Origin: Panopea generosa
Taxonomy: Eukaryota; Mollusca; Bivalvia; Adapedonta; Hiatellidae
Direction: 5' to 3'
Assembly: GCA_029582155.1 (NCBI GenBank)
Contig: CM055909.1
Location: 44,018,967 to 44,082,966 of the forward strand
DNA length: 64,000 bases
The number at the start of each line of letters is the position of its first letter. Within the stretch, counting starts at the first letter, position 1. Under the pieces are notes generated by a model. That model made no database searches and was not told the origin of the DNA. It was given only the letters and a program-made list of their open reading frames with translations. The translations under genes and the position numbers were made by a program. Below are positions 5,840 to 55,735 of this stretch, piece by piece.

Positions 5840-6165
5840 TTGTCCGTCTTTGTAGCTCACCTGAGCCAAAAGCTGTTGGTGAGCTTTTCTGATCTGGTGT
5901 TATCCGTTGTATGTCGATCATATTTGCCATCAATATGTCATCCATCTGTTGTCTGAAGCTAAATTTCCCCCTTTTTTCAGATTGGGACCCTGGGGTCATA
6001 TTTTGGGAAATCTTAAAAAAGATATTTTTTGTGATACGACAAATATTTGTGCTATGATATTTCATATGTAGCATATACGCATGGACCTCTTTAACCAAAA
6101 ATTAGAAGAAAATTGTTATTAAAGTGAGAATTGGGTGAGCTTCACCAGTTTGGGCACCTTGTTGT
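5840..6165. repeat. Dispersed mollusc-type repeat (fragment)
   Basis: Starts 'tagctcacctgagccaaaag' and includes 'gggaccctggggtcat'; it ends near 'ggtgagcttcacc'. Sequences of this kind are common in bivalve genomes as I remember them. No coding capacity. Identification of the family is from memory. Confidence 0.45.
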
Positions 6166-30891: not shown

Positions 30892-31065
30892 TCATTTTTT
30901 ATCAGTAGGTTTCTCGTCATTTTTATCAGCTACGTCAAATTTGTCAACTTTATCTTTGACACAAGTGTGCGAGTCCAAAACTTTTAGAAGAGAATGTTTC
31001 TCGGCCTGGAGTGACTCCATCTGTCGTCGGAGATCGCTGTTTACGACCTCCTCTCTATGAAGCTC
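30892..31065 (-). CDS. Exon 7: leucine zipper and C-terminus
   Basis: Acceptor tttttttgcccag|GAG at 31066/31065, phase 0; TGA stop at 30892-30894. It continues the zipper started in exon 6. Heptad positions are L (2179), E (2186), L (2193), L (2200), L (2207) and H (2214), so the second heptad has Glu where Leu is usual. The end of the zipper, VLDSHTC, resembles the His-x(n)-Cys ending of ATF3, JDP2, FOS and BATF zippers. A short charged tail of Lys and Asp follows. Dimerisation is the expected role. No single polyadenylation signal can be chosen: AATAAA occurs on the minus strand at about 30,250 and 30,270, among others. Confidence 0.88.
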   Translation of the reverse strand, partial: ELHREEVVNSDLRRQMESLQAEKHSLLKVLDSHTCVKDKVDKFDVADKNDEKPTDKK

Positions 31066-32793
31066 CTGGGCAAAAAAATGAGTCTGATTATAGTGCAAGT
31101 ATTGGATTTGTGTCGGGCAAACTTATTGAATAATAAGAATTTAGGTATCATGTTTAAATTAGGAGATTCTAACCCAACGTTTACCATTTTTGTTTAAAAA
31201 TCTACGCCAAATTGTCAAAGATCTAGTAAAAAAATAAATCAAAGGTTTGAATATCCCTGTCTGAACAAGATACCTGCAATGGAACCTTTTTCCTGCATAC
31301 CATGCATAGATGGTTTTATTTTTAAATAATTTCAATTTTTTTAAAATTCCAACCTTGTAATACCATACATCATGTTAAATATTTTTCGAGGAAATTTGAT
31401 TTTTAAATAAAATTGGTATGCAAGAAAAAAAATCTCTATTGAATCAAATGATGCACTTCATAATATAGATGAAAATAATTTTTTTTTAGGTAGATGGTTA
31501 AAAAAAGTGCAACATGGGTATCTGAAAATTTCACCGACAAAACAATGACACTGAATGATGCACCTTAAGACATTGATGATGATGTAAATTTGAAGCTGAT
31601 GATAAAAATGATGAAATGAAAGATCTATAACATTTTGCATTATAGAAGAACAATGAAACAAAACAAAACAAGTTACAAATTTAAAGAAACACAAACATAA
31701 TGATAGCTGAACATTTGATGTTGGTGATAAAAATGAATACCTACTGGTTTTTCAAATTTGTACGTGTTTACATTGATTAAAAAACAACTCATTTCCTATG
31801 GATGATTATGATGTGGCCTAAAAACTTAAAATACAGTCATGCTCTACCAGTCCACTCCCCCTGATAACCCAATGACCTATAAAGTCTACCCTTTAAAGGG
31901 ATAAAATTTCACACCTTTTTCACAAAATAGTAAAGTACATATCTATGGGCTGTTTTCACTTAATAGTAAAACACATGGGTTGTTTTTATACTGTTTTTGA
32001 TAGAATTGTTAAAAAAACCCAGGTTGTGTTCATTATTTTCATAGAATAGTAAAATACATGGACTGCTTTCATACCGTTTCACAGAATAGTAGAGTAATTA
32101 TCTACGGGCTGTTTCCACATAATAATAAAATACATGGACTGCTTTCATACCGTTTCACAGAATAGTAGAGTAATTATCTACGGGCTGTTTCCACATAATA
32201 GTAAAATATATGCCAGGGTTGTTTTTATGCTGTTTTTGATAGAATAGTAAAAAAAAACAAACAGGTTGTATTCATTATTTTCACAGAATAGTAAAGTATA
32301 TAGGTTGTTTTCACAGAATAGTACAATACATGGGCCATTTTTCAGTGGCTGTGTTCAGTTTAGGTACAGCCTGTTGATTCACCACTGAGCCTCGTGCCAT
32401 TACCCTATCAAACTGCTGAAGCTGTTAGAAAATGTAAACAGCTAGCACATTGTTCGGTTAATTTGTATTAGACACGGTAAACGTTACTGATCTCTGCTCA
32501 GATATTGTGGCATCACCATTAACAATTTTCGAATGCATGGCAATTATATTGTGCATGTAACTAAAAAAAGATAGAAAGTTATAAAAACTTAACATTAAAG
32601 ATAAGACGATAGGAGTCAATTTTGATGATTTTGTTTTGAAGCATTCGTAATAAAAAAAATTTATCAACTTCATGCATATAAAATATATTACATGTAATAG
32701 GAGAGAGAGATAGATAGAGAGAGAGAGAGAGAGAGATAGATAGAGAGAGAGAGAGATAGATAGAGAGAGAGATAGACAGATATATATATATAT

Positions 32794-32856
<63 letters not shown>

Positions 32857-35800
32857 GATATAGATAGAGAGAGAGAATGAGAGAGAGAGAGATAAACAGA
32901 CAGAGACAGACAAACAGAGAGGGGGGGGGGGGGGGGGGGGGGGGGGGGAAGGAAAAGACAAAAAAATGAAAACAAAAAAGAGAGATGATGACAACAGTAT
33001 GAAAATTGAACAAGTGCATTCATGTCACATAACTAATGCAATATAAACTAAATCTATGTCACCTTCGAGCTGCTGGTAAAGAAATCTCAGCCAAAGAAAA
33101 AGGTACTTACAAAGAACTTAGCCTAGTTCATGAGTTCAAGTACCTTGTCTGAGGATGCGATTTCTCTATCCACAAGTCGTGGGCATAACACTTTTTTCTT
33201 TCTGGTAAAAAATATTATTATTGTACCAACTTCTTCGTAACCAACAAACATATCAAGGGTTGAGCGCAACACTGTTCTATCCACATATAAACAAATAAAG
33301 AAATAAAGAATGTTCGGTTGAACTGCTATGATTTTCTAGAAAGTCCAACAATTACAAGCTCTCTTGTCCAGTAGTTGAGAAAACCATAATATTTTTTTTA
33401 ACAATATTATGCAGCTTTTCAACATTTTGATACAAACGTGCACACATATACATGATAGTAGTCTGCATTCCGCAGATAGAGCAATATCTCCCTACATACA
33501 GTTGCAAATCAGGGACACGTGAAAGTTTTATAATTTTTTTTACAGTATTATGTAACAATGACTTTACATATATACAATGTACATGTTACCATGAACTAAC
33601 ATGTAAAACAGTTAGCATTTGTGGCTAATGATTGAGTCAAACAATATCAAGTCAAAATTTATGGTATTTCAATAATTACTGGCAATATCATACCAGTTAA
33701 AAAACAAAATCAGAATAGGATTGTACGTCATTTTCAACACATGATAGGTCATATATGGCATATCCTGTTTTATTGCTGGGGGATGACTGAGTAGAATCAC
33801 CCTTTCAAAGATAACTGTCAGTCTTTTAGGACCAATCTAGGATCAAACCGATGACCTCGAGGTAAGTGACACTGCCTTGGACCACTCAGCCGTGGATGAT
33901 CATTCATCCCATAAGTTAAAAAAAAAACATGTGGCCCAAATAATAGGTCTGTGTTTGATTGGAACATGTACCCCAAAATAATAGTTCTATATTTGATTGG
34001 ATCATGTGCTGCAAATAATAGGTCTGTGTTTGATTGGAACATGTGCTCCCCCCCCCCCCCCCCCCCCCCCCCCCAAATAATAAGTCTGTGTTTGATTGGA
34101 ACATGTAACCCCAAATAAAAATAATAGGTCTGTGTTTGATAGGAACATGTGCCCTCCCCCAAAATAATAAGTCTGTGTTTGATTGGAACATGTGCCTGCC
34201 TCTCCCCCCCCCACTCCCCCCACAAAAAATAAGTCTGTGTTTGATTGGAACATGTGTCCCCAAATAATAGGTTTATGTTTGATTGGAACATGTAACCCCA
34301 AATTAAAATAATAGTTCTGTGTTTGATAGGAACAAGTGCCCTCCCCCCAAATAATAAGTTTGTGTTTGATTGGAACATGTGCCTGCCTCTCCCCCCCCCC
34401 CCACTCCCCCCACAAAAAATAAGTCTGTGTTTGATTGGAACATGTGCCCCCAAATAATAGGTTTATGTTTGATTGGAACATGTAACCCCAAATTAAAATA
34501 ATAGTTCTGTGTTTGATAGGAACAAGTGCTCTCCCCCCAAATAATAAGTTTGTGTTTGATTGGAACATGTGCCTGCCTCTCCCCCCCCCCACTCCCCCCA
34601 CAAAAAATAAGTCTGTGTTTGATTGGAACATGTGCCCCCAAATAATAGGTTTATGTTTGATTGGAACATGTAACCCCAAATTAAAATAATAGGTCTGTGT
34701 TTGATAGGAACAAGTGCCCTCCCCCCAAATAATAAGTTTGTGTTTGATTGGAACATGTGCCTGCCTCTCCCCCCCCCCTCCCCCCACAAAAAAATAAGTC
34801 TGTGTTTGATTGGAACATGTGCCCCCAAATAATAGGTCTATGTTTGATTGGAACACATGCCCCAAATAATAAGTCTGTGTTTGACTGGATCACATGCCCC
34901 AAATAATAGGTCTGTGTTTGACTGGATCACATGCCCCAAATAATAGGTCGGTGTTTGATTGGATCCCGTGCCCCAAATAATAGGTCTGTGTTTGATTGGA
35001 TCCCGTGCCCCAAATAATAGGTCACAGACAGAGGTAACTACGGTTGGTATAAATGATCACGCAAGATAGTTCACAAATCTTAATTGAAATAAATGAGAGA
35101 GGAGACAAATAAAAGACAAATATGACAAGACGTGATAGCCTTCTATTCTTTGTGAGCAGCCCTCCCCCAACCCTTCCTCATTTTATTCAAGGTAATGACA
35201 TTAAATCTATAAATCAGAATATCAGATTGTCCTACTGAAAAGAAAGATTTCAACCTATCATTGGTTGATCTGTCAGATATAAAATAAAATAAAAGTCAAG
35301 CACATATTAGACATAATCTAAATTGTATGGACTGCCAGTAATGGACATTTAGTGTTACCAATGGACATTCAGTTGGAATAAGTAGATAAAATTGTTTATT
35401 CATTCAAAATCAATTTGGAGACAATCCGTACAGATGATACATATTCCTCTGACTATGGCACAAATAAGTTTTTGTTTGTTTCAATATTATGCATCATATT
35501 AAAGCTAACAGACAATCAGTTAACCTAACCACTATTTTCTAGGATCCTGGAAGGTTAACCAGTACTCAAGCACAGCCTCCTTCACAAGTAAATGACAATT
35601 TTCTCACCTAAATCGGCGGTGTGAGAAGAATGACACGGAGACGCAATGACATATGTAATTCATCATGTAGACTGTGTAAGACATGCTACAGACTGAGCTA
35701 ACCAGGCTACAGTGACACAGATGAAGGTGTTGACGTGGGACTGGACTACGAGAACGGGTGACCACAACACCAAGGTATGTGGTTCTTATTTATGTTATTA

Positions 35801-38800
35801 TTAAATAGTTGATTGTTGATTGCTTGAATATTTAGCGTCATTTTTATGCCATCGAGGGCTAACAGATGATCTTTAACCTTCCTTGGATCTTGAAAGGTTA
35901 ACCAGTACTCCAGCATACCCCATCTCCGCCAGTAAGTAGCAACTTTCCCACTTGAATCAGCAGTGAGAGATGAATGATAATGAGACACAATGTCATATAT
36001 CAATCATCATGGAGACTGTTGTTGGGCGGGGATTCAAACTCACGAACCCTAGATTAATAGTCAGATGCCTTACCGACTAATCGGGCAAAATTGTACAGTA
36101 TTGTTATTACTGACACATGTAAACCATGTACAAGCTGAAAGACGTGAAAATTAATGTCTATCTCTATATATATTTTCATAGTATTCCGGTAATGAAAAGA
36201 TGGCGAATTTCAGATCAGATAAATTTCAGAGTCACATTATCAATTTAAACCATATTTACAGTTTTATAATATGTATGTAAATGTATTTCATTAATGATTT
36301 CATAAATATTATCATTACTACTCACAAAATCATCAATGAAATATTTTTACATACATATTCTGAAATTGTAAATACCGCTTACAATAGTTTGATAATGTGG
36401 CTCTGAAATTCACCTGGTGTTTCTCAGTATATATTTAACCCTTTACTTCATATAGATGCCTTTGCACACCTCTAATATAGATGCCTTTGGACACCATTAA
36501 TATAGAAGGGTTTTGATTATTGGTCAAATTATGTTTATATAAACTGACAGAGTGGAAAACAGTGCAGGAAGTGTTCAGATTGCTCGTTACGAGCAATTTG
36601 AACTCTATCTGCACTGTTTTCAAAGACCTTCTGAGATTGGTACGAGAAAATGCGTATCTATAAAGTAAAGGGTTAAGAGTTGCGACTCATTTTTGCGCTT
36701 GGCTCTGGATTTAAAATTGGCAGTAGGACAAATTCATTAAGGTTCATTGTAAGTATCACTTGCTAGTATTCATAGCGTAAAATTGTATTTCGCTTATTAA
36801 CGACCGATAGGACAGTAAGGTATAGTTGGTAGACTGTGAAAACTTAGAATCTAAGACATAGATGACTGCTGGTATGTTCTGTTTCTCACCTCCAGTAATG
36901 TGTCCACCAAATCTTTTTTCCTTAGTCTACTTCTTTGCGCCGCCTGTCTGTTACATTCGCGACGAAAATTTAACTTTGATTTTTCCTCTTCCGTCATCTA
37001 AAACACCAAAGTTACAATTTTGAACCTGAACTATGCATTTATACAGCATACATTATGAACTATGCACTATGCACTTTTACAACATGCATCATGAATTATG
37101 TATTTTACAGACTGATTGATCAAATATTTAGCATCATTTTTATGCCATAAAGTGCTAACAGATGATCAGTTAACCTAACCACTGTTTTCTGGGATCCTGA
37201 AACGTTAACCAGTACTCCGGCACACCCCATCTCAGCAAGTAACTGATAACTTTCTAACTTGAATCAGCGGTGAGAGACGAACGATGAGACACAAAGTCTT
37301 ATTTCAATCATCACAAAGACTGATGCCAGGTGGGGATCCAAACTCATGGCCCCTGGATTGATAGTCAAACGCGTGAACCTACTGAGCTAATTGGGCTGTA
37401 AATGTATTTAATAGTATTAACTATGTTTTTTACAGTATTTATAATATAAGTAAAAAGGATTCACTAAATCGCTGAGCTAATGTTGCCACCAAGCTAAAAT
37501 AAACTAAGCAAAATAATTGGATCATTTAGTAAACATAACTGTAGTGTATTCAATAAACCAACTTTAATTATACCTCTGTGGGCTCAGGCTGTTTAAACTC
37601 CACTGTCAAATCTTCCAGGCCTTGAGACCGCCGACGAGCGTATATCTTAGCACGCAACTCTTGTCGCAAAATGTCCAAGTTCCCTGTAGCAGATGATGTT
37701 GATGTAGTTGGTGATGGAAGCATATCGCTCAGGTCGCTGCCCGTAAGAGAGGACGAGGAATCTTGTGTTTCAAGTAATGATGGATTGAGAGAAAGGAGAC
37801 GTGACCTCTGTGTTGTCTTGTTCACAGAAATTTCTAAGGATGTAGGGGGTCGTAAAGGTTTCGGCACCGCCGCTGTACTGGTGACAGTCGATGCTACAGA
37901 AAATAATAGTTCATTAGTTACTGATAATATGTGTCAGATATAAAACGTATCGAGACTGAACACATCAAATGATTGATTGATTGAAAATTAAGAGTCGTTT
38001 GTATGCCATCGATGGCTTACAGATGATCAGTTAACTTAACCACTGTTTCCTGGGATCCTGAAAGGTTAACCAGTACTGGAGCATACCCCATCTCCTCAAG
38101 TAACTGATAACTTTTCCACTTGAATCAGAGGTGAGAGACAAAAGGAAATGAAACACAATTTCGTATATTAATCATCCTGGAGACTGTTGTCGGGCAGAGA
38201 TTCGAATTCATGAACCCTGGATTGATAGTCAGATGCCTTACCGACTATTAACCCATCAAATAATGTATTTAAAATGAAATGACTTGAAAATTATAAGTTA
38301 AAAGCGATACTGGATAAACGTTCTAATTTCTCAGCTCGGGGAGTATCAGCTTATCAGCTAGGGTGTCTTGACAGACCAAGATTATAAGAATCTTACATGG
38401 GTTTGTGGTCTGGATAGAAAATTCTGTCCCAGAGAGCCTCGTACCCACAAAACCAGTCATTCCAAGGGACAGACTTCTCTATCCGAACCTAAAAAGCCAT
38501 GAATGATTCTTTTTCTTGCAAACCAAACATATTCAATGATTATTTTAACTTAATTTATCAATATAGATTTTACAACGACTGCTTTTAAGAGGCTTCATTA
38601 TACGATTTACGTCATAATTATATTTTATACGCTACATCATCTAGATGGTTCCAATGCCACAGCGTGAGAATTTTATCTTGGCCCTAGGGTGAGACAGAAA
38701 TATCTTAAACCCTGGTAAAAATGCAAATATTCTTATCCAGTTTGCAAGAAAGCAAACATATAAATACAGCTTATAGACAGGAGTTATATACTCTACGACA

Positions 38801-41800
38801 GTGAGTCTCATTATCATTTGTCTCTCACCTCCAAGTCAAGTGGGGAAGTAATCATTTACTTGTTGAAATGTGTATACTCAAATACTGGTTAACCTGTCAT
38901 TTTCTAATAAAACAACTTAAAACTTTAATTTCTTTACAGATCAAGATAACAAGTAAATAAATAAAGTCGTCATTTCTTATAAAACAACTTAAAGCTGTAA
39001 TTTCTTGACAGATCAAGATAACAAGTAAAAGAATAGTCGTCATTTCTTTTTAAACAACTTAAAGCTGTAATTTCTTGACAGATCAAGATAGCAAGTAAAT
39101 GAATATACTCGTCATTTCTTGTTAAACAACTTAAAGCTGTAATTTCTTTACAGATCAAGATAGCAAGTAAATGAATACACTCGTCATTTCTTGTTAAACA
39201 ACTTTAAGCTGTAATTTCTTGACAGATCAAGATAACAAGTAAATGAACATAGCTGTCAGTTCTAATAAAACAACTTAAAGCTGTAATTTCTTGACAGATT
39301 AAAATAACACATGTTTCAAGAATATAGATGCCATTTCTAATAAACAACTTCAAGATTTACTGTTAATCTATAAAAACAGATAAAAATAAGATACAGGAAA
39401 ACCTGTCTTAAGCAGCCAGTAAAGGGAAGGAGCAAAACTGGCCTTTTAAGACAGAATGTTGCTTAATACACTTCATTCAGGCACCTTTAAAATTACAAAT
39501 ATTTGTATTCAGCTTTCAAGTTTTTACGGCTATAAGTGTATACAAACTACATTTATTGATAAAGAAATAAAGTGATGAATAAACAAGAGGCCCAAAATGA
39601 CCTGAATCGCTCTACTGGCAACAGATGTTACATGTAAAATATCTAAGGTCTAGGTCTTAAACTTTCAGAATGTTTAAAATTTCACTAAAAATGTGCATGT
39701 AAGCCCTGAGGTGGTAGCTCATCTGAGATCTTATATATCTGCTGTTTAAGTTTAATTAAGATTCAATGAAAAATGAAGGTGCTACTGCTCCTACAAGAAA
39801 AAGTTAATGGACGGACGGATGGACGACGGACAATTTACCACGACATACACCTTGCTGGCCTTTGATCAGTAGAGCTAAAAACTGTCATTTTTCACATAGA
39901 AACTTATATATTAAAAGTATATTGCATATGAATAAACTAGAGCTATCATTTATTGACAAAGCAAATTTCAAAATTAAATATTTATGAATGCTGCTGTCAT
40001 TATTGCCAAAAAACAACAACACACAGATAAAGACTATTGCTCCATTTTTACATGTATTACATACCTGGTGTCCGTTCAGTTACAGCTGACATTCTCCCTT
40101 TGCTATGATGGATGGTTGCATCACCCTGGGACACAGTCACCAAATGTTGGGAACCTGAGTTTGGGGACACTCCATGTTCACGCATGTGTATGTGTAGATC
40201 TATCTCATTGTACAACTTTCTTCCACAGAGTTCACAGTGAAACAGGCGAACAAGAGGCGGTGGAGGCAGACTGGAGCAAGATGATGTTGACTGATTCCTT
40301 GAACTTGGGGATGACCTAGACTTTGATGGTAATGACACATTTTCAGTAGGTCGCTTCCTAATCGATAGGTCTTGAGGACAATTTTGTGTTTCACTTATAT
40401 ACTTTTCAATTCTCGATGATACTAATGATGACATTGATGCTCTTGAAACATTATGTGAAGTGGTTGCCATGGTTCTTGCATCTGAATGTGCGTATGGCAT
40501 GTTTAGGGGTGGAGCCAGTGGTGACTTACTAGATGTGCAGGGTTGAGAATTAGATAAATATATGGATGATGTGGATGATGATGCAGTTGAAGATGATGAT
40601 TTAGATAATGCTGATGATGTTGATGATGACACTGTTACAGATAATGATGACAATGATGATGGTGCAGACGACGATGCTAATGATGGAATCTGAGCTTTCA
40701 TTAGAAGTGACAGACGGTCTTGAATTATTGGATTGTGCATGTGCATTTGTGAGAGTTCGTGTAATAACTTTTGTTCCGGAGTTGGATTTTCACTCTTTAC
40801 CAGCTGTGCATTTTTCATTCTATTGTGCAGCATTTTAGACATTTTCTCCTGTCGACGCCTTTCTTGTTCAGCAGCAAGCTCAAGAACAACTGTTGGAATT
40901 TGCGGAATTGATAAGCTTGGACTGCTATTTATGACAGTTTTTGGCAGATTTGCAGTGTTGTTTACACTGCTTTTTAGTTCATTTTTCACAGGTTGATTCA
41001 GACTTTCCACTGCAGGACAATCATTAGAACTGTTGTTGGGAGGACTGTCTTTCTTTGTCATATTCACTTGAGGTTGGTCAGGTATTACAATTGGACTTTT
41101 AATTTTATTAGGCTCTATTACATTATGAGTTGCTTTACCTTTAGAATCAAAGTCATGACCTATGTTACTTTGGAAGCTTAACACATTAAGCGGATGCTCC
41201 GGTGCTTGTATCTGATTTTTATTAAATGCCTGAGTTGGATTGAAGTTTGATTCAGTTGTTGGATGAATATCTGTCACAGATTTATTCTGTATAGCTCCTC
41301 TCTTTAAGTTTGCCAAAATTTCAATAGTTTCTAGTTCTTTTTGTCTATCTTCCTGTTCTAATCTTATTAGTTCCTTTTCTTTTTCTGCATTTCTAATATC
41401 ACTGCAAACAGCACTCAGAAAATTCAAATTCATTGCATTTGGTGACACATTTGTCTTCTGTCTCAACATTTCCTCCTTCTTGGGGGACTCCGAAGAAGAG
41501 AGTTCTGTGTCTGAAAAATCGGATAAGCGATTGTCACGAACTTCTCCCTCGGAGTAAAGGTAAGTCCGAGCATCAGAGTCTGTGGAATCGTTACTATCTT
41601 CTTTAATCATAGAGTAACCCGGTTCCAAATCAGCCATTTCTAAAATTTCAGTTTTTACTTTACTCAAATCTGTATTTATTTTTGTGTTATTATTTTCAAT
41701 GTCACTTTCTCTGTCTACAATCTCCTCCTTTATTTCTGCCTCGTCTTTTCGTTTATCATAAAAACTTCCATCCAGATTTGGTGGTCCCATGGGATGTAAC

Positions 41801-44800
41801 TTCATGTGCTGTTCGTATGTGTTTCGTCGGTGGAATGTTTTACCGCACGGCATGCATTTCATTCTGTTCTCCTGGCAACTAGTTTTTAAATGGCGTAGCA
41901 GACTACAACTTTGTGTAAATCTGTGATTACACACGTGGCACTCGTACAGGTGCGTCTCAATCGTATTATGAAGAGTCATGTGCGTTTTTAAAAGCATCAC
42001 ATTTGGAAACTTTTCCTTACAGACTCTGCACGATGTTTGATAAACGCGAGTCTTACGGGATCGTTTATGGAATGTATGAAGATCTAGATCAATATTCATT
42101 GGTCCGCTGAATTCATCATTTATGCTTTGTTTTTTCTTCCTTTCAACATACGCTTTGTTGTCCAGTTCTAAAAGCAAGGTATCCGGTTTTTGTTCATTAT
42201 CACTGGGTTCATCTTGGACAGGGTTTATTTGATCTAATTTCTCTGTTACACTAATGTGGTCTGTGCAGTACTCTTGTGTAATTAATGGAGGACTAAGGTT
42301 GGCTGGACTGGTTTGAGAATGTGATGTTGTTGGTGTATTGGCAGGAGATAAAACTGGCGGAAGACATGAGGAATCTTCCATTTTAATACGTACAGATAAA
42401 TCCAAAATGTCGTTCTTTTGCTCCAGCGTATCTGGCTCTATCTTCAACTCCTTCATTTTTTCCAATTGCATCATATGAATTCTTTCTTGTCGTAACAAAG
42501 TATATGTGTCTAGCATTTTCAGTTCAAAATTGACGTCTGCAACCTGTTGTTTCAGACTTGGTACTGATGGTTTTTCATGTACAACTTTATGTCTCATAAG
42601 GCTACTCCTGTGTATGAAAGATTTTTTACAAACACTACAAACATGAGGTCGAGGCAGCATATGTGTAGCTATATGCTTGTCCAGAGTCACTTGCCGAAAA
42701 AAAGATTTACCACAGATATCACAAAGGAAACAGTTATCTTTATGAATCAAAGCATGCATTCTCAGTTTTTGCTTCGTGGTATAAGTATTATCACAGGCAT
42801 GACAAACATACCGTTTAATCTTATCAGTGCCAATTATAAACTGAACAGGTGGGTCATTCAAATCTTTGTATATTTTCATGGTTTCATATAAATGCGGCAT
42901 CGTAGGTTCTGATTCAACATCAACCTGATTCACTGCTGCAACAACAGAACTGACCATTGAAGTATTTTCCAGAGATTGTTCTCCTTCTTGAGAGGTGTTT
43001 ACATGAGATTCATCATTTAAGTCTATCTCTGGGGATTCTTCACTGGTTTGAACATTTTGAGTTATTTGAGGTGCGATGTCTGTCACAAAATCCCTGAACG
43101 CTTTACTTAAAAGTTTTCTTTGTCGTAGTTTTTCACTATGGACCCGCATGTGAGAGTTTAAACTTTTTTGGAATTTAAAAACTTTCTTGCAGATGTCACA
43201 GTTGAAACTTGTTTGACCAGCATACCCAAGCACTTTCATTTGGTTTGCTTTTGCTTTCTTCAAAGACTGAAGCATTGGATTCTTTTTATGAACAGTCATA
43301 TGTAAAACTAGATGATGATTTGAGTGGAATAATCGAAGGCAGATTTCACACTTTGCTCTTTTACTCTTCTTTTTAATTTTTTGAGTTTGTTTGTTTATTT
43401 TATTGAACTTTTCAAGACCATCACATTTTGAATCCCTCTCAATTTGTTTACTGTCTAATGCAAATGTTTGATCTGAAAGGTCTGTGTCCTCATGCTTATC
43501 TATTGTGTCATCTTTTTCTTGCAATTTCAAGACCTTATTCTTTTCACTATTAAGATTTTCTGAACTTGTTCTTTTTTGTGACTTTTTCATTTTGTTATCA
43601 CATTTTTCAATTTCATTTTCAAACATCCCTATATTAGTCTCTTTAGTATCAAGTGCAGTTGTTGAAAAGTCTTTGCTTTTGTTTTGATTTTTTACGACTG
43701 CATCAGTCTCAGTTTCAATGAATCCTGTACCATCAGATTTAAATAAATTTGAATTAAACATTTCGATTGCTTTATTCTCATTGTTTACATTACTTTTATG
43801 AACTTGAACTTTGTTTTCAATTTCATCAACTATTTCATCCATTCTTTGTCTAACTTCATCTAAGCAGTTTGATTTATTTTCAGCTTTCTCCTCCTCATAG
43901 CTCAACTGATTTATTTGTGTCTCAGTCTTAAAATCTTTCTCATTAGAAGGTAGTCCACTGGAACATGATTCAATCACAGAAGTAAGTCTATTTTCCAGTT
44001 CATCATTGCTTTTTTGTAAATCATTACAAAATTCATTAATTCTTTCCTGGGTTACCATGTATTCTGTAACAGTTTTGTTAACTTCTTTCACTTCAACACA
44101 GTTTTCATCAGATCCTTCATGAAACTCTTTATTCATTACTTTTAATTCACCAGTTTCAAAATCAAGTTCAACTTCATCATCAAATTTATATTCTGGAAAT
44201 GGATTATTAACTTCAACAGTTTCTTCAACAACCGTTACTTCCTTCTCAACCTCGTCACTAGGAATAGTTTCAACATTTGAAGTTTCGTTTTTATTACTGT
44301 TTATCTCATGATCGTTGTTTCTTGCTGTATCTTCACAAGTCATGATAACATTATTTCTCAGAGACACTTTAACAGCTGCCTCAATATTAGTTGAAGCTTT
44401 CGACAACTCCTTTGATAAATTTTTATCTTCATTAATAACATGATTTTCAACACTTAATAACGGTGGGTCACTTGTATTTTTAAGTACATCTGTCCGACCT
44501 GGTGAACCAGTAACATGAGCAGATACCACATTTGGTATTGAAAGTTCATTGGGTTCATTTGTTTCCTTCGACACATTTATGTCTTTAATCACATCTTCCT
44601 CTTTCTTACTCACTTTTATTTTGTCACTTTCAGCATCCTTGGACAGCAATGAAACCTCCTCTTCATCGGACACTATGACAAGATCGTCAACTTGGATACT
44701 TGGATGAGACACATTTCCTATTGCTTCATAATGGCTTTTTGCACCGTCACCAGTCATTTTTTTAATATGCAATTGCTGCAATTGCTTTGTAGATATTTGA

Positions 44801-47800
44801 CTTTTGGGGCTGTTTTCGCGCACATGTTTTCGCAAATGTTTGTGAAGCAGAAATATTGCCATAAATGTTTTTGAACATGCATCACATTTAAACGGTTTCT
44901 CTCCACTGTGCTTTCTCTGATGTACAATTAAGTGATGACGATGCAAAAATCGACGATGACAAGTCTGACAGCCATACTGCCTTTCCTCAGAAGTTTTGTG
45001 CACTGTTGTATGCAATTTCATGGCTGCTTTTGTTTTAAACACCTTTGGACACTGTGGACATGGGAAGCCCTGAAGCTGCTCCATCTGAATATAGTTTTGT
45101 CCCCCTACCACATGGCTTCTGCCATCAGGAGTTCGTATAACGTAACGCTGGACCAAATTATCATTCCCTTTCATAAAAGCACTATGAATATTCGGTCCTG
45201 GCTGGTCAACCATCTTACCATGGTAAGCAGTTCTGTAATCTGATTGGCTAATACCATGTCCATTATTGGCACTAGTTGTTGGCTGGTTAACGCCACTTAC
45301 ACTAACTGTTGCCTGACTTTTGGTGTTGACTGAAGAGCTGTGAGGCCGGGGCGTGGTTATAGCGATTGGTTTGTGGACACCCTGGACTACAGCTACTGAA
45401 GAATTGGAGAGGGCCATGTGTGGCACAGAGATCCCTAGAGGACGTGATGTAACTGGAGCAACAGATGAAAATGGTCGTATTGATCTAGATGCATCTGCCA
45501 TGCCCATTCCTGAAAATATCAAAGAGAAAGCTTTATTTCTGCACAAAGGAAATTTAACATGTATTAATAGCATTTGATGGAAGCTAAAGTTGATTTGATA
45601 AAAACTCTGTTTTGAGCTGCCATATTTCAACTTTATAGCTGGGTCCGGTTGGCTCAGCCAGTACCGTGTCTGACTATCAATCCACAGAATTGTGAGTTTG
45701 AATCCCTGCCCAGCCAGCCTTCCTGATGATTGATATATGATATATGTGTCTCATTGTCATTCATTTCTCATCGCTGAAAGAAATCAATTACTTGTGGAGA
45801 TATGTATGCTCAAGTACTGGTTAATCTTCCAGGATCCCAGAAGAGAGTGGTTATGTTAACTGACCATCGTCTTAGCTCTCGATGGCATAAAAATTACATA
45901 AGCACTCAAACAAAACAAACTAATTTCATAATAACAACTGTTCAAAACAGATATTAATGAATTTGAATTAAATACATACCTCCTCCAAGAAGTCTTGATC
46001 TTGATTCTGATTGGCTAGATTTCTCATAATCTGGAGGCAATGTTGAATTTGATTGGTTTGAATTCAAAGCAGCCTGCAACAAGCTGTACTGTCCTGCTAC
46101 AGCTCTGGAATGACTTGAACTGGGTGGTGTTTGTGACAATTGCTGTGGTTGGTGGAGGACTTGTTGAGCATGTTGAGACAACATATATGATTGGCTGATG
46201 ACATTCTGATCAATAGATTTTGGTGTGCTGGGCTTTGAAAGATCTAAAGCTTCAGCTTGGCCAGATAGCCCCTGTGGATAATAAATTTACATATTTTTAT
46301 TAATCTATATTGTATTACAACAATTTTCAAAGATAATGTGAGAAAACAAGCCTCCTCCAATGTTTTTTTAAAAATCGATACTCTTATTTGAACAGGATGT
46401 TACTTTGATCTTTAACATATCATAAATGTGTAACTGCCTTTTTTTATTTGCGAGAACTTAATTATTTCGCTAAAATTGCAAACATGTTCACTGTCCAAAT
46501 GTTTACTATATCGGTAATCATGTCAGTCCAATGAAGACTCATTTCAAATAATTATAAATTCTGTTTAGATTTACCATTACAAAGTTTATAAACCATTTTT
46601 AGTACTTTTGTGTATTTTGTTAATAACTTCCAAATGTAATAAAGATTTTTTTTTCATAAATATAAAATTTGAACAGGAAGTTTATTAATATAACTAGACT
46701 GGTACACATATTCAAATTCTATTCAATTCACTATTTTTACACTTATCATTAAACAGAATCAGTGTAAGGTGTTTATATACATTGCATATGAAAATATTTG
46801 TATTGTATGAGTTATATTTATTTTATAATTATTAATAAAGTTCATGCAAATTTAAAGTGTTTTAAAGAACACTTCCTGTTATATTTTATTTATTTCACCG
46901 TAGATTGGTATATATAAAAGTGCAGGCCTAGAAAGTTTTAGGGGGTGTCTGTCTTATTTTAAAATTGTAAACAACCAAAAGTGCATTTTCAGTGGTTTTG
47001 TGTGTATTTTTCTCTATGTAAAACATACCCATTGCTTATGGAAATTTAAATTTAATCAGATTTCCCCCCCACCCCCAGGGGCCTGCAGTGTCTACACCAG
47101 TGTATTTCATATAAATAAAATAAAAACTTTTCATTTTGAGTAAAAATCTGATAAATAAGTTGAAATTTGGGACACACCATAGATTAATGATATGTCAATG
47201 CTTTATGGGTCGAATTTTTCTTTTAAATTTGACTATTAATTAACAAAGAAACAAAAATATGGCTATTACCATCTGCTTGCCATAACTCGACAAGTCCAGG
47301 GCAATATCCTGCTCATTAGCCCATTTCTGTCCAGTTACCATGGCAACAGAGTAATTGCCCTGTTTTCCTGACAGGTCAAGCACCTGCTCGCTACATACGC
47401 CACGTGGCGGTGTTTCCGTGCCAAGTCCATGCGTCCGGGCCTCAACCTCAGACACAGGTTTGGTGTACTGTGACGCGTTGTATTGTAAGTATTTCTTCAT
47501 ACTCTGTTAACATTGGTAATTTCACAAACTAATTGCGACAAACTGGTCTATCCCATGACTGCATATGTATTTTTTCTGTAAAGAGAGAAATATTTTGGTT
47601 ATAACTTCTGTGTTAATTTGATGAAAGATAAATGAAAACTGCCGAGTGCTAGAGAGCACACAACAAAATGTTTAACCTTTTACTTCAAATAGACGCGTTT
47701 GGACACCTCTAATATAGACGCCTTTGGGCACCTCTAATGTAGATGCCTTTGGACAACTCTAATATAGAAGGCTTTTGAATTAATGGGTGAATTATGCTTA

Positions 47801-50800
47801 TATTAACTGACAGAGTGGAAAACAGCGCAGGAAGTGTTCAGATTGCTTGTTACGAGCAATCTGAACTCTTCCTGCACTGTTTTCAAAGGCCTTCTGTGAT
47901 TGGTGCGGGAAAATGCTATCTATGGAGTAAAGAGTTAAAATGATTAACTAACATAAACAACAGAGCAACAAGGATAAATATATAACATAACAAAGATACC
48001 ACACCCTCAAAATTAGTTAAATAACCTAAACTACAATATAACACATAAATAACTATTTAAACTAGAAATATCACTGAAGGTGATGAATACCCCCAGATGG
48101 CATCCTGATACAGTTATTGCACCCTTTTGCTGCTGGCTTAGACACAGTGAACAAATTAGAGTTGCCAAACCCTTTTGTGAAGTGTCAATGAATTCCAGCA
48201 AATGGTTGCTGAGTAATAGCGACCCCCAAAAAATGTGTGAAAAAATTCAAAGGGCCATAATTCATTGAAAAATTATCACATGCAACATGCTGATAATATA
48301 CATAACAAGGCTTGGTACCAATCACTCTTGTGAAGTATCAATGAATTCCAGCCAATGGTTGCCGAGAAATAGCAACCACAAAAATATGTATGAAAAATTC
48401 AAAGGGCCATAACTCATTGAAATATCATTCTCAGGCAACATTAATATAAGCATTAGTCACATAAACATCCCATTAACATAAACAAGTGGCATAAATATTC
48501 CATTAGTATAAACAAGTCACATAAACACTCAATTAATATAAAAAAGTCACATAAATATTCCATTAAAATAAAAAAGTCTCATAAACACTCAATTGATATA
48601 AACAAGTCGTATAACTATTCCATTAATGTAAACTACAGTCACATAAACATTCCATTGATATAAACAAGTCACATAAGTATTCCATTAATATAAACAAGTC
48701 ACATTAATATTTCATTACTATAAACAAGTCACATAAATATTCCATTAATATAAACAACAGTCACATAAATATTACACAAATATAAACAACAGCCACCTAA
48801 ATATTACACTAATATAAACAACAGCCACATAAATATTCCATCATTACAAATAACAGCCACATAAATATTACACTTATATAAACAACAGCCACATAAATAT
48901 TCCATTAATATAAACAACAGCCGCATAAATATTCCATTGATATAAACAACAGCCACATAAATATTACACTAATATAAATAACAGCCACATAAATATTCCA
49001 TTAATATAAACAACAGCCACATAAATATTCCATTAATATAAACAACAGTCACATAAATATAACACTAATATAAACAACAGCCACATAAATATTTCATTAA
49101 TATAAACAACAGTCACATAAATATTCCACTAATACAAACAACCATCACATATTCCATTAATGTTAACAACAGTACAACAGCCACATAAATATTTAGATAA
49201 TCAACTACAGTACAACAGACGCATCAATATTCCATTAATATAAACAACAGTCACATAAATATTACACTTATATAAACAACAGTCACATAAATAATCCATT
49301 AATATAAACAAGTTACATAAATATTTCATCAATACAAACAACAGTCACATAAATATGCCATTAATATAAACAACAGCCACATAAATATTCCATTAATATT
49401 TACAAGTCACATAAATATTCAGTTAGTATAAACAAGTCATATAAATATTCAAATAATATATACAAAACTTATAAATATTCCATTAATATAAGCAACAGTC
49501 ACATAAATATTCAAATAATATATACAAAACACATAAATATTCCATTAATATAAACAACAGACACATAAATATTCCATTAATATAAACAACAGTAAAAAAG
49601 CCACATAAACATTCCATTAATATTAAAAAGTCACATAAATATTCTAATTATATAAACAAGTCACATAAATATTCAATTAATATAAACAAGTCACATAAAT
49701 ATTCAAATTATATAAACAAATCACATTAATATTCAATTAATATAAACAATGTCCACATAAATAATCTATTAATATTAACAAGTCACATAAAAATTCTAAT
49801 TATATAAACAAGTCACATAAATATTCAAATAATATAAACAAATCACATAAATATTCAATTAATATAAACAACATCCACATAAATAATCTATTAATATTAA
49901 CAAGTCACATAAATATTCCAATAATATAAACAACAGTTAAACAGCCACATAAATATTCAATTAATATAAACAAGTAACATAAACATTGAAATAATATAAA
50001 CAAGTCACATAAATATTCAATTAATATAAACAAGTCACATAAATATTCAATTAATATAAACAAGTAACATAAACATTGAAATAATAGAAACAAGTCACAT
50101 AAATATTCAATTAATATAAACAAGTCACATAAATATTCAATTAATATAAACAACAGTCACACATAAATATTCAAATAACTAATTACAGTATAACAGAGTG
50201 ATAAATATTTAAATAACATAAAACAGTTCAACATGCACGCAAACATATAAAATAGTAAATACAACATGTACCTCCGTAATGTACTTGTATCACAATTTAT
50301 CCATGTCCTCGGGCCACATCACAACATACTGTGTAAATATTTATAATCATTAGTATGTCTATCTCTGTTTTAAAAAAATCTATCTATAAATCCAGTGAAA
50401 ACTCTTTTTTTTCTATAAAAATGTAAACTAACATAAACAGTGACCACTTTATGTTGTTTTTAACCTTATGCATTAACACAATAAACCCATAATACGTGGT
50501 CAAAAACCACTTGTATAACAAAGTACATATACCGACAAGCACACGCTATAACGACAGTACTGTGTGTAGAGAATTATAAATACTTAAGTTAAAACTACAA
50601 CAACGAAGGGTTATACAAACATGTACATGCGGCATTATTATCGGTATATGGTATTCGACTACAGCAGGCGACACAGAAGGTTTTTAACAGCGCAGATCAG
50701 TTAATCAATAGAGCCGATATTGTGAAAACTGAATACACATTCCTCGGTTACTCACCACAGCAAGTGCTGGTATACAGATATACCTGGCTGACTCCAACAC

Positions 50801-52934: not shown

Positions 52935-53232
52935 ATTGATTGAATATTTCGCGTCATTTTTATGCCATTAAAGGCTATCAGACAATCAGTTAACCTAACC
53001 ATTGTTTCCTCAGATCCTGAAAGGTTAACCAGTACTCGAGTACACCCCATATATGCAAATAACTGATAACTTTCCCACTTGAATCAGCGGTGAGAGACAC
53101 ATGATAATGAGACACAATAATAATGAGACACAATGTCGTATATCAATCATCACAGAGACTGTTGCTGGGCGGGGATTCAAACTCACAACCCCTAGATTGA
53201 TAGTCAGACGCGTTACCAACACTAATCGGGGC
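52935..53232 (-). mobile_element. SINE S1
   Basis: Near complete, minus orientation, with a local duplication of 'ataatgagacacaa' at 53,102-53,131. Confidence 0.8.
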
Positions 53233-53784
53233 CAGCTACTAGCGCTACATTATCAGATATGGCAAGTTCATGAGCTGATACAACTATAACTACCAGTATA
53301 TAAGTTTGGTGAAAATACATTGAATAATGCAGAAGCTAGAAAATGCAAAAGGCCAAATAATGCAATTTTTGATGATTCAAGGACCATAACTCAGACATAA
53401 ATAATCTTATTTAGACAGTTCGAGATCTAAGATATACCACTCCTGTGTGCCTTTGGTGATGTCGGATGACAATGCCGATGTAAAACTGCACACAAGATCA
53501 AATGGGGCAGTTTTGAGTGATTAAAGGGTCACACATTAAATGGTTTCATATTATATAGTACAGTATTTAATCTGCATTGTACATTTATACTGTACACCAT
53601 ATAGCATGTAGTGTACTTGACATCATTTAAACCCTCCTTTCCGACTGATAGGTCATTACAACTATGATACAATACTAAACGACTCCCAAAACCATATTTG
53701 TATTTGTCTATCATACTTGGACTTCTGGGGCAGACTACCACTGGTGATCTTTGGTTTGTGACTTGGATCAAAGTGGCAGACAAG
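53233..53784. other. No recognisable gene
   Basis: Fragments of the 'ggaccataactcagac' repeat at 53,380-53,540; otherwise AT-rich. Confidence 0.4.
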
Positions 53785-54365
53785 TTGAGACAACCTGGTG
53801 ATCTTGGAACTAAGGTCAGACTCAGACTACCTGGTGATTTTGGAACCAATGTCAAACTCAGACTACCTGGTGATTTTGGAACCAAGCTCAGACTACCTAG
53901 TGATGTTGAAACCAATGTCAGACTACCTGGTGATCTTGGAACCAATGCCAGACTACCTGGTGATGTTGAAACCTAGGTCAGACTACCTGGTGATGTTGAA
54001 ACCCAGGTCAGACTACCTAGTGATGTTGAAACCAAGGCCAGACTATCTGGTGATCTTGGAACCAATGCCAGACTACCTGGTGATGTTGAAACCCAGGTCA
54101 GACTACCTAGTGATGTTGAAACCCAGGTCAGACTACCTGGTGATCTTGGAACCAAGGCCAGACTATCTGGTGATTATGGAACCAAGGACAGAACCCCTGG
54201 TGATTATGGAACCAAGACCAGACTACCTGGTGATTTTGGAACCATAGTCAGACTACGTGGAGATTATGAAACCAAGGCCAGACTACCTGGTGATCTTGGA
54301 ACCAAGGCTAGACTACCTTGTGATTTTGGAACCAAGGTCAGACTACCTGTCTTTTTTTAGGTCAG
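53785..54365. repeat. 30-bp minisatellite
   Basis: About 19 units of gtcagactacctggtgatct + tggaaccaag. The period is divisible by three and gives open frames on both strands (SDYLVMLKPR, PGSLTLVSTS). Variants 'gatcttgga', 'gatgttgaa' and 'gattatgga' occur in blocks. Confidence 0.95.
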
Positions 54366-55324: not shown

Positions 55325-55735
55325 TTAAGGATGTGAGTCAGTAGTGTAGCGGATAGAATGACGGCCACTCACGCCAGAGGTTGTGGGTTTGATTCTGAAC
55401 TTGACCCGATACCACTCAAATAACAAAACTCGGTACTGGTTCTACCCAGGAAGCGGACTTGAGAGCAGTTCCAATAACACTTAATCCTTTACTCCATAGA
55501 TACGCGTTTTCCTGCACCAATCACAGAAGGTCATTGAAAACAGTGCAGGAAGTGTTCAGATTGCTCGTAACGAGCAATCTGAACACTTCCTGCACTGTTT
55601 TCCACTCTGTCAGGTAATATAAACATAATTCACTCATTGCTGATAAGTGGTGAATTAATGCTTTCAATATTAGAGGTGTCCAAAGGCGTCTATATGAAGT
55701 AAAGGGTTAAGTGTTCTTCACAATCAAGCTAAAAT
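55325..55735 (+). mobile_element. SINE S4 split by an M1 element
   Basis: Head with box B 'gttgtgggtttgattct'; body to 'gagcagttccaataacac'; resumes after 55,706 as 'gtgttcttcacaatcaagct'. Alignment to the 1.9-kb copy shows the M1 insertion lies within the S4 body. Confidence 0.7.
55485..55706 (+). mobile_element. TTAA-flanked element M1 with perfect palindromic core
   Basis: TTAA at 55,481-55,484 and 55,707-55,710. The core 55,536-55,602 is a perfect palindrome: two 33-bp arms around one base (55,569). Same orientation as the 28.6-kb copy. Confidence 0.85.

Follow-up and report, generated by a model that had tools for sequence, protein, structure and literature searches.

A putative single gene joining twelve zinc fingers to an ATF3/FOS-like bZIP domain in the bivalve Panopea generosa

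Introduction

The locus described here raises the question of whether a long run of zinc fingers and a bZIP domain, encoded one after the other on the same strand of Panopea generosa DNA, are made as one protein or belong to two neighboring genes. The original prediction, made from the letters of a 64,000-nucleotide stretch (hereafter the window), joined a twelve-finger exon to a downstream bZIP in one reading frame, and compared the product to ATF2, ATF7 and CREB5. Each of these three proteins combines a bZIP at its C-terminus with a single N-terminal C2H2 finger that is used for activation. The members of the ATF3/JDP2/FOS/BATF group are small and do not contain zinc fingers, and the known partner domains of animal bZIP families are few. 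RREB1/Hindsight, EVI1 and ZEB are large multi-C2H2 repressors that recruit CtBP, and we know of none of them with a bZIP.

Results

A six-exon model with one open frame

Our model of the locus consists of six coding exons, E1 to E6, on the minus strand (Table 1), where E3, E4, E5 and E6 correspond to exons 4, 5, 6 and 7 of the original prediction. The joined frame of 6570 nt encodes 2189 amino acids followed by a stop codon, with no internal stops, and an in-frame TAA is located immediately 5′ of the first ATG in E1. All five introns are GT-AG with consistent phases, i.e., phase 1 at the E3/E4 junction and phase 0 at both the E4/E5 and E5/E6 junctions. We confirmed that the finger exon ends at a phase 1 donor with a stop two codons into the intron (ACA CCA GGT ATG TAA), and that the downstream exons keep the phase and complete a full bZIP. 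The joined open frame and the Pfam matches to its domains rule out a chance open frame, and both domains, the fingers and the bZIP, are real.

Table 1. Exons of the minus-strand model and features of its third intron (positions in the window; ranks refer to splice-site scores)
Feature	Position	Strand	Content	Splice sites and other remarks
E1	47270-47500	minus	First coding exon found (MKKYLQ...KQM), two LDLS motifs	Donor ATG/GTAATA weak, top 8.7%
E2	45980-46271	minus	Coding exon with ALDLSKP motif	Acceptor phase 0; donor GAG/GTATGT phase 1
E3	40065-45509	minus	5445-nt finger exon; 12 fingers in dispersed groups; ILDLSVR and PQDLSIRK	
Start of intron 3	40056-40064	minus	Strong donor gtatgt, then in-frame stop TAA at 40059-40057	
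Intron 3	37894-40064	minus	2171 nt	72-bp tandem array 38896-39354; tRNA-like repeat copy; two AATAAA
E4	37574-37893	minus	Ser/Thr-rich stretch, then LRQELRAKI	Acceptor phase 1, top 9.7%; donor GAG/GTATAA phase 0, top 11.6%
E5	36890-36997	minus	108-nt exon, bZIP basic region NRQAAQRSR	Acceptor weak, top 21.2%; donor GAG/GTGAGA, rank 6 of 3739
E6	30892-31065	minus	Leucine zipper and C-terminus up to stop TGA	

The window is AT-rich, and the ORF lists, together with Pfam searches of five other stretches, showed no clear second gene in it, barring one candidate coding exon at 5861-5952 on the minus strand. This exon carries MDDILMANMIDIQRITPDQKSSPTAFGSG before a donor CAG/GTGAGC, has no Pfam match, and perhaps belongs to the next gene. 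Rfam and tRNA scans gave no matches, and the single NCBIfam match was far under its cut-off (16.9 versus 386 bits). E2 contains no CpG at all (observed/expected ratio, o/e, 0.00), with E5 at 1.54 and E6 at 1.08; this contrast perhaps reflects chance in short exons, or a differing methylation history of the two halves.

Several kinds of repeat are present in and around the gene. Near-perfect, MITE-like palindromes are located at 47818-47884, at 36555-36621, and at about 55530-55620; the first two have 33-nt arms that are 88-91% complementary around a 1-nt loop, and the third copy was read by eye. Dispersed repeats with a tRNA-like head, located in or around introns (approximately 38022-38270, 37110-37395, 45640-45870 and 53000-53240), are probably SINEs, with ARAGORN finding no tRNA. 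Long minisatellites occupy 33926-35023 in intron 5 and 48439-50178 upstream of the gene, with periods of ~37-187 and 30-90 bp.

The zinc-finger half

The count of twelve fingers in E3 stands, with 11 of them fitting the strict C2H2 pattern C-x2-4-C-x12-H-x3-5-H, and with the twelfth, at residue 1365, being instead C2HC. The Pfam zf-C2H2 match is above its cut-off of 25.2 (88.4 bits, E 1.6e-25), and the solved relatives, among the best 60 of 141, are generic zinc-finger chains. A classical GEKP linker is present between just two of the fingers (355 and 383), so it is unlikely that the finger groups together recognize a single extended DNA site. When viral and prokaryote contigs were searched for sequences related to E3 and to the bZIP portion, there were 6, 4, 11 and 70 pattern matches, none of which was confirmed; these collections are animal-free, and are therefore silent on conservation.

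The joined protein contains eight DLS motifs, where composition shuffles average 1.1, and four LDLS motifs, where they average 0.10, with none of 2000 shuffles reaching either count. PxDLS alone is weakly enriched, since 115 of 2000 shuffles reach the observed count. One of the motifs, PQDLSIRK, matches the CtBP-binding consensus, PxDLSxK/R. The enrichment of DLS motifs suggests a predicted CtBP-recruiting repressor, and lends sequence support to the earlier description of the finger protein as repressor-like. RREB1/Hindsight, EVI1 and ZEB likewise have dispersed finger groups, long spacers and PxDLS-like motifs.

The bZIP half is closest to the FOS/ATF3/JDP2/BATF group

The Pfam bZIP_1 score (22.7 bits, E 1e-4) is under the curated cut-off of 27.6, from which we conclude that the domain is divergent; bZIP_2 is also under its cut-off (18.5 versus 22.3). 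The best solved relatives are FOS and FOSB (eight chains up to E 1, the first five with E 0.0012 to 0.023). The alignment to FOS/FOSB is ungapped over ~55-65 residues and crosses the E5/E6 junction, which supports this splice, and the ungapped score against FOS is 93, where 5000 shuffles peak at 37. The zipper d positions read L-E-L-L-L-H, i.e., Leu at four of the first five with Glu at the second, and the leucine heptads run on from the basic region without a gap, in register with FOS. In the sections of a bZIP survey available to us (PMC4736632), the DNA-contact residues are given as Asn-Ala-Ala-Ser/Cys-Arg, and NRQAAQRSR in E5 satisfies all five.

We compared the domain with 14 bZIPs, for which the letters of FOS and FOSB came from solved chains, ATF2 was checked, and the others were provisional sequences. 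Against this mostly provisional set, ungapped BLOSUM scores were 88-106 for the six FOS/ATF3/JDP2/BATF members versus 31-54 for the eight other bZIPs, and the zipper alone gave 46-64 versus 25 or less. The groups could not be told apart by the basic region on its own, for which BACH1 gave the highest identity (12/18) in this mostly provisional set. Over the whole domain, again relative to mostly provisional sequences, identity was 25/63 to BATF and BATF3, and 23/63 to ATF3, JDP2, FOS and FOSB. At the positions that determine zipper specificity, the g residues are EVQEV, where the provisional ATF3 sequence has EVQEM, and the third a position is Asn and the fifth Lys, as in that sequence. These comparisons, made to mostly provisional sequences, support placing the bZIP with FOS/ATF3/JDP2/BATF, with zipper specificity positions that appear closely ATF3-like, and are in line with the ATF3-type assignment of the original prediction.

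This domain shares with the ATF3/JDP2/FOS/BATF group a basic region of the form N..AA..SR and a zipper that aligns without gaps and has His as its last residue, but differs in being divergent, its second d position being Glu, and in its putative place in a long protein with fingers. In ATF3, JDP2 and FOS the basic region is presumably encoded by an exon of 108 nt that lies between two phase 0 introns, and E5 agrees with this in both length (108 nt) and phase (0/0). The segment LRQELRAKI in E4 also resembles the provisional ATF3 sequence. In the available part of PMC4736632, the FOS-ATF3 pair is described as having arisen on the bilaterian stem.

The comparison to ATF2, ATF7 and CREB5 holds to the extent that C2H2 fingers and a C-terminal bZIP would be on the same chain, but it is a loose one, as the bZIP is nearer to FOS/ATF3/JDP2/BATF than to ATF2 (score 53 for ATF2 versus 101-106 for ATF3 and JDP2). 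Here there are also 12 fingers and CtBP-like motifs. An ATF2-type fusion was rejected, since the ATF2 score is below those of all six FOS/ATF3-group members; a fusion at this locus would thus be independent of the one in ATF2/ATF7/CREB5. The zinc-finger-like transactivation domain of ATF2 is cited in the reference list of PMC4736632.

One gene or two

Splice sites were ranked using approximate splice frequencies, and the donor that closes E3 (CAG/GTATGT, phase 1) is the 8th of the 3739 GT sites on the strand. The probability of such a donor occurring by chance at the very end of the finger ORF is ~0.001 (8 per 64000 positions x 9). The presence of this strong donor eight bases before the finger ORF ends makes it unlikely that a finger-only ORF ends there by chance, and E3 as the terminal exon of the main product was rejected on donor strength. 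The exon that follows was scored with a codon model trained on E3, and with a background that overlaps the null stretches. Among the 242 phase-1 continuation frames between 40000 and 22000 (18 kb), E4 was first at 26.2; of the runners-up, the one at 13.1 is E6 read from another, upstream acceptor, and the one at 9.7 is noise. Some nulls scored high with this model: the minus strand gave up to 14.9, and the plus strand 22.4 opposite E4, in antisense, and 18.6 within a repeat near 53900-54230. On balance the sequence favors a single gene, and we consider it moderately probable that this is a real ZF-bZIP fusion gene, whose two halves would be joined in one mRNA and made as one protein.

The main competing explanation, which we regard as fairly unlikely, is that two adjacent genes lie on the same strand, with a finger-only gene ending just past E3, and with E4-E6 forming a small ATF3-like gene whose first exon, located in intron 3, is noncoding and whose translation starts at the Met at 37720. 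The first coding exon of ATF3 carries a start Met and an EELR segment, and E4 would likewise be of this kind. An AATAAA at 39954, 111 nt past E3, would allow a finger-only mRNA; another is present at 39557, and there are 106 such hexamers on the strand. TATAAA at 38629 and TGACGTAA at 38614, close together in intron 3, could form an internal promoter, although the window has 199 copies of the first and 4 of the second when its two strands are pooled. Intron 3 itself is in part tandem repeat and SINE-like sequence, with an overall CpG o/e of 0.52; these features count against two genes, as does the very strong donor closing E3.

The codons ahead of the Met at 37720 bear on both readings. All 57 of them are open, which was the case for 183 of 5743 overlapping null windows, and only 3 of these 183 scored equally high; this counts against two genes. 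The coding signal in this part is small (2.9), and the antisense frame is also open with a nearly equal score (2.1), as two genes would allow; in composition shuffles, 1636 of 20000 were open. We take the coding signal upstream of the first Met of E4 as suggestive only. A short ATG-bearing first exon for E4 within intron 3 was also considered and rejected, since the best of 28 candidates able to feed E4 scored 2.3; the best such exon per noncoding stretch (n = 31, overlapping) scored 4.2 in the median and 15.5 at most.

It is also conceivable, and in our view quite unlikely, that both forms are made, i.e., the full-length ZF-bZIP protein along with shorter products that would arise from a promoter or a polyadenylation site within an intron, or from skipping of E5, the last of these leaving a zipper without its DNA-binding region. 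With its 108 nt and equal phases at both ends (0/0), E5 can be skipped without loss of the frame. In the search for the next in-frame exon after the E4 donor, E6 scored 27.7 and E5 16.0, which makes a form without the basic region possible. Weak splice sites are typical of many alternatively used exons, and both sites of E4 and the acceptor of E5 are weak (Table 1), but such weakness is by itself no proof of alternative use. A nested arrangement, with the bZIP gene inside a long finger-gene intron and E3 joined to an exon downstream of 30892, is very improbable, as the plausible same-strand coding exon near 5952-5861 would require a 34-kb intron, scores 14.2 in phase 1, well under the 26.2 of E4, and lacks a Pfam match.

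Discussion

Twelve fingers followed by an ATF3/FOS-like bZIP is a combination that we did not find described, and would be a new architecture built from two known kinds of protein. A search of titles and abstract openings, with subscription journals mostly outside its reach, found no multi-finger bZIP protein, which is weak evidence for novelty; the one phrase match came from a passage concerning two separate families. No multi-finger bZIP is named in the portions of the PMC4736632 bZIP survey available to us.

If the fusion is real, this single gene would encode a single protein of ~2190 residues, with a large multi-C2H2 body, long spacers that are probably disordered, several LDLS/PxDLS motifs probably recruiting the CtBP co-repressor, and a divergent FOS/ATF3-group bZIP at its C-terminus. 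It likely arose by fusion of tandem genes, in which the last donor of the finger gene came to be spliced into the second-exon acceptor of an ATF3-like gene, and the former 5′-untranslated sequence, 57 codons ahead of the old start Met, would have become the Ser/Thr-rich linker. The zipper would mediate dimerization, probably with JUN-type partners like FOS and ATF3, and the basic region would bind AP-1/CRE-like sites, with the finger groups making further DNA or protein contacts and with repression exerted via CtBP. Skipping of E5, which keeps the frame, could yield a zipper-only antagonist form.

We tentatively propose, as a reading that may well not hold, that this is a lineage-specific yet conserved factor in which a 12-finger repressor that binds CtBP is united in one protein with a dimerization domain of the ATF3/FOS group. 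If true, a large repressor would be covalently tethered to AP-1/CRE sites, and stress-responsive AP-1 partners would be drawn into repressor heterodimers. A fusion of this kind would mean that a stress-factor module had been hard-wired to a co-repressor platform by the splicing of neighboring genes.
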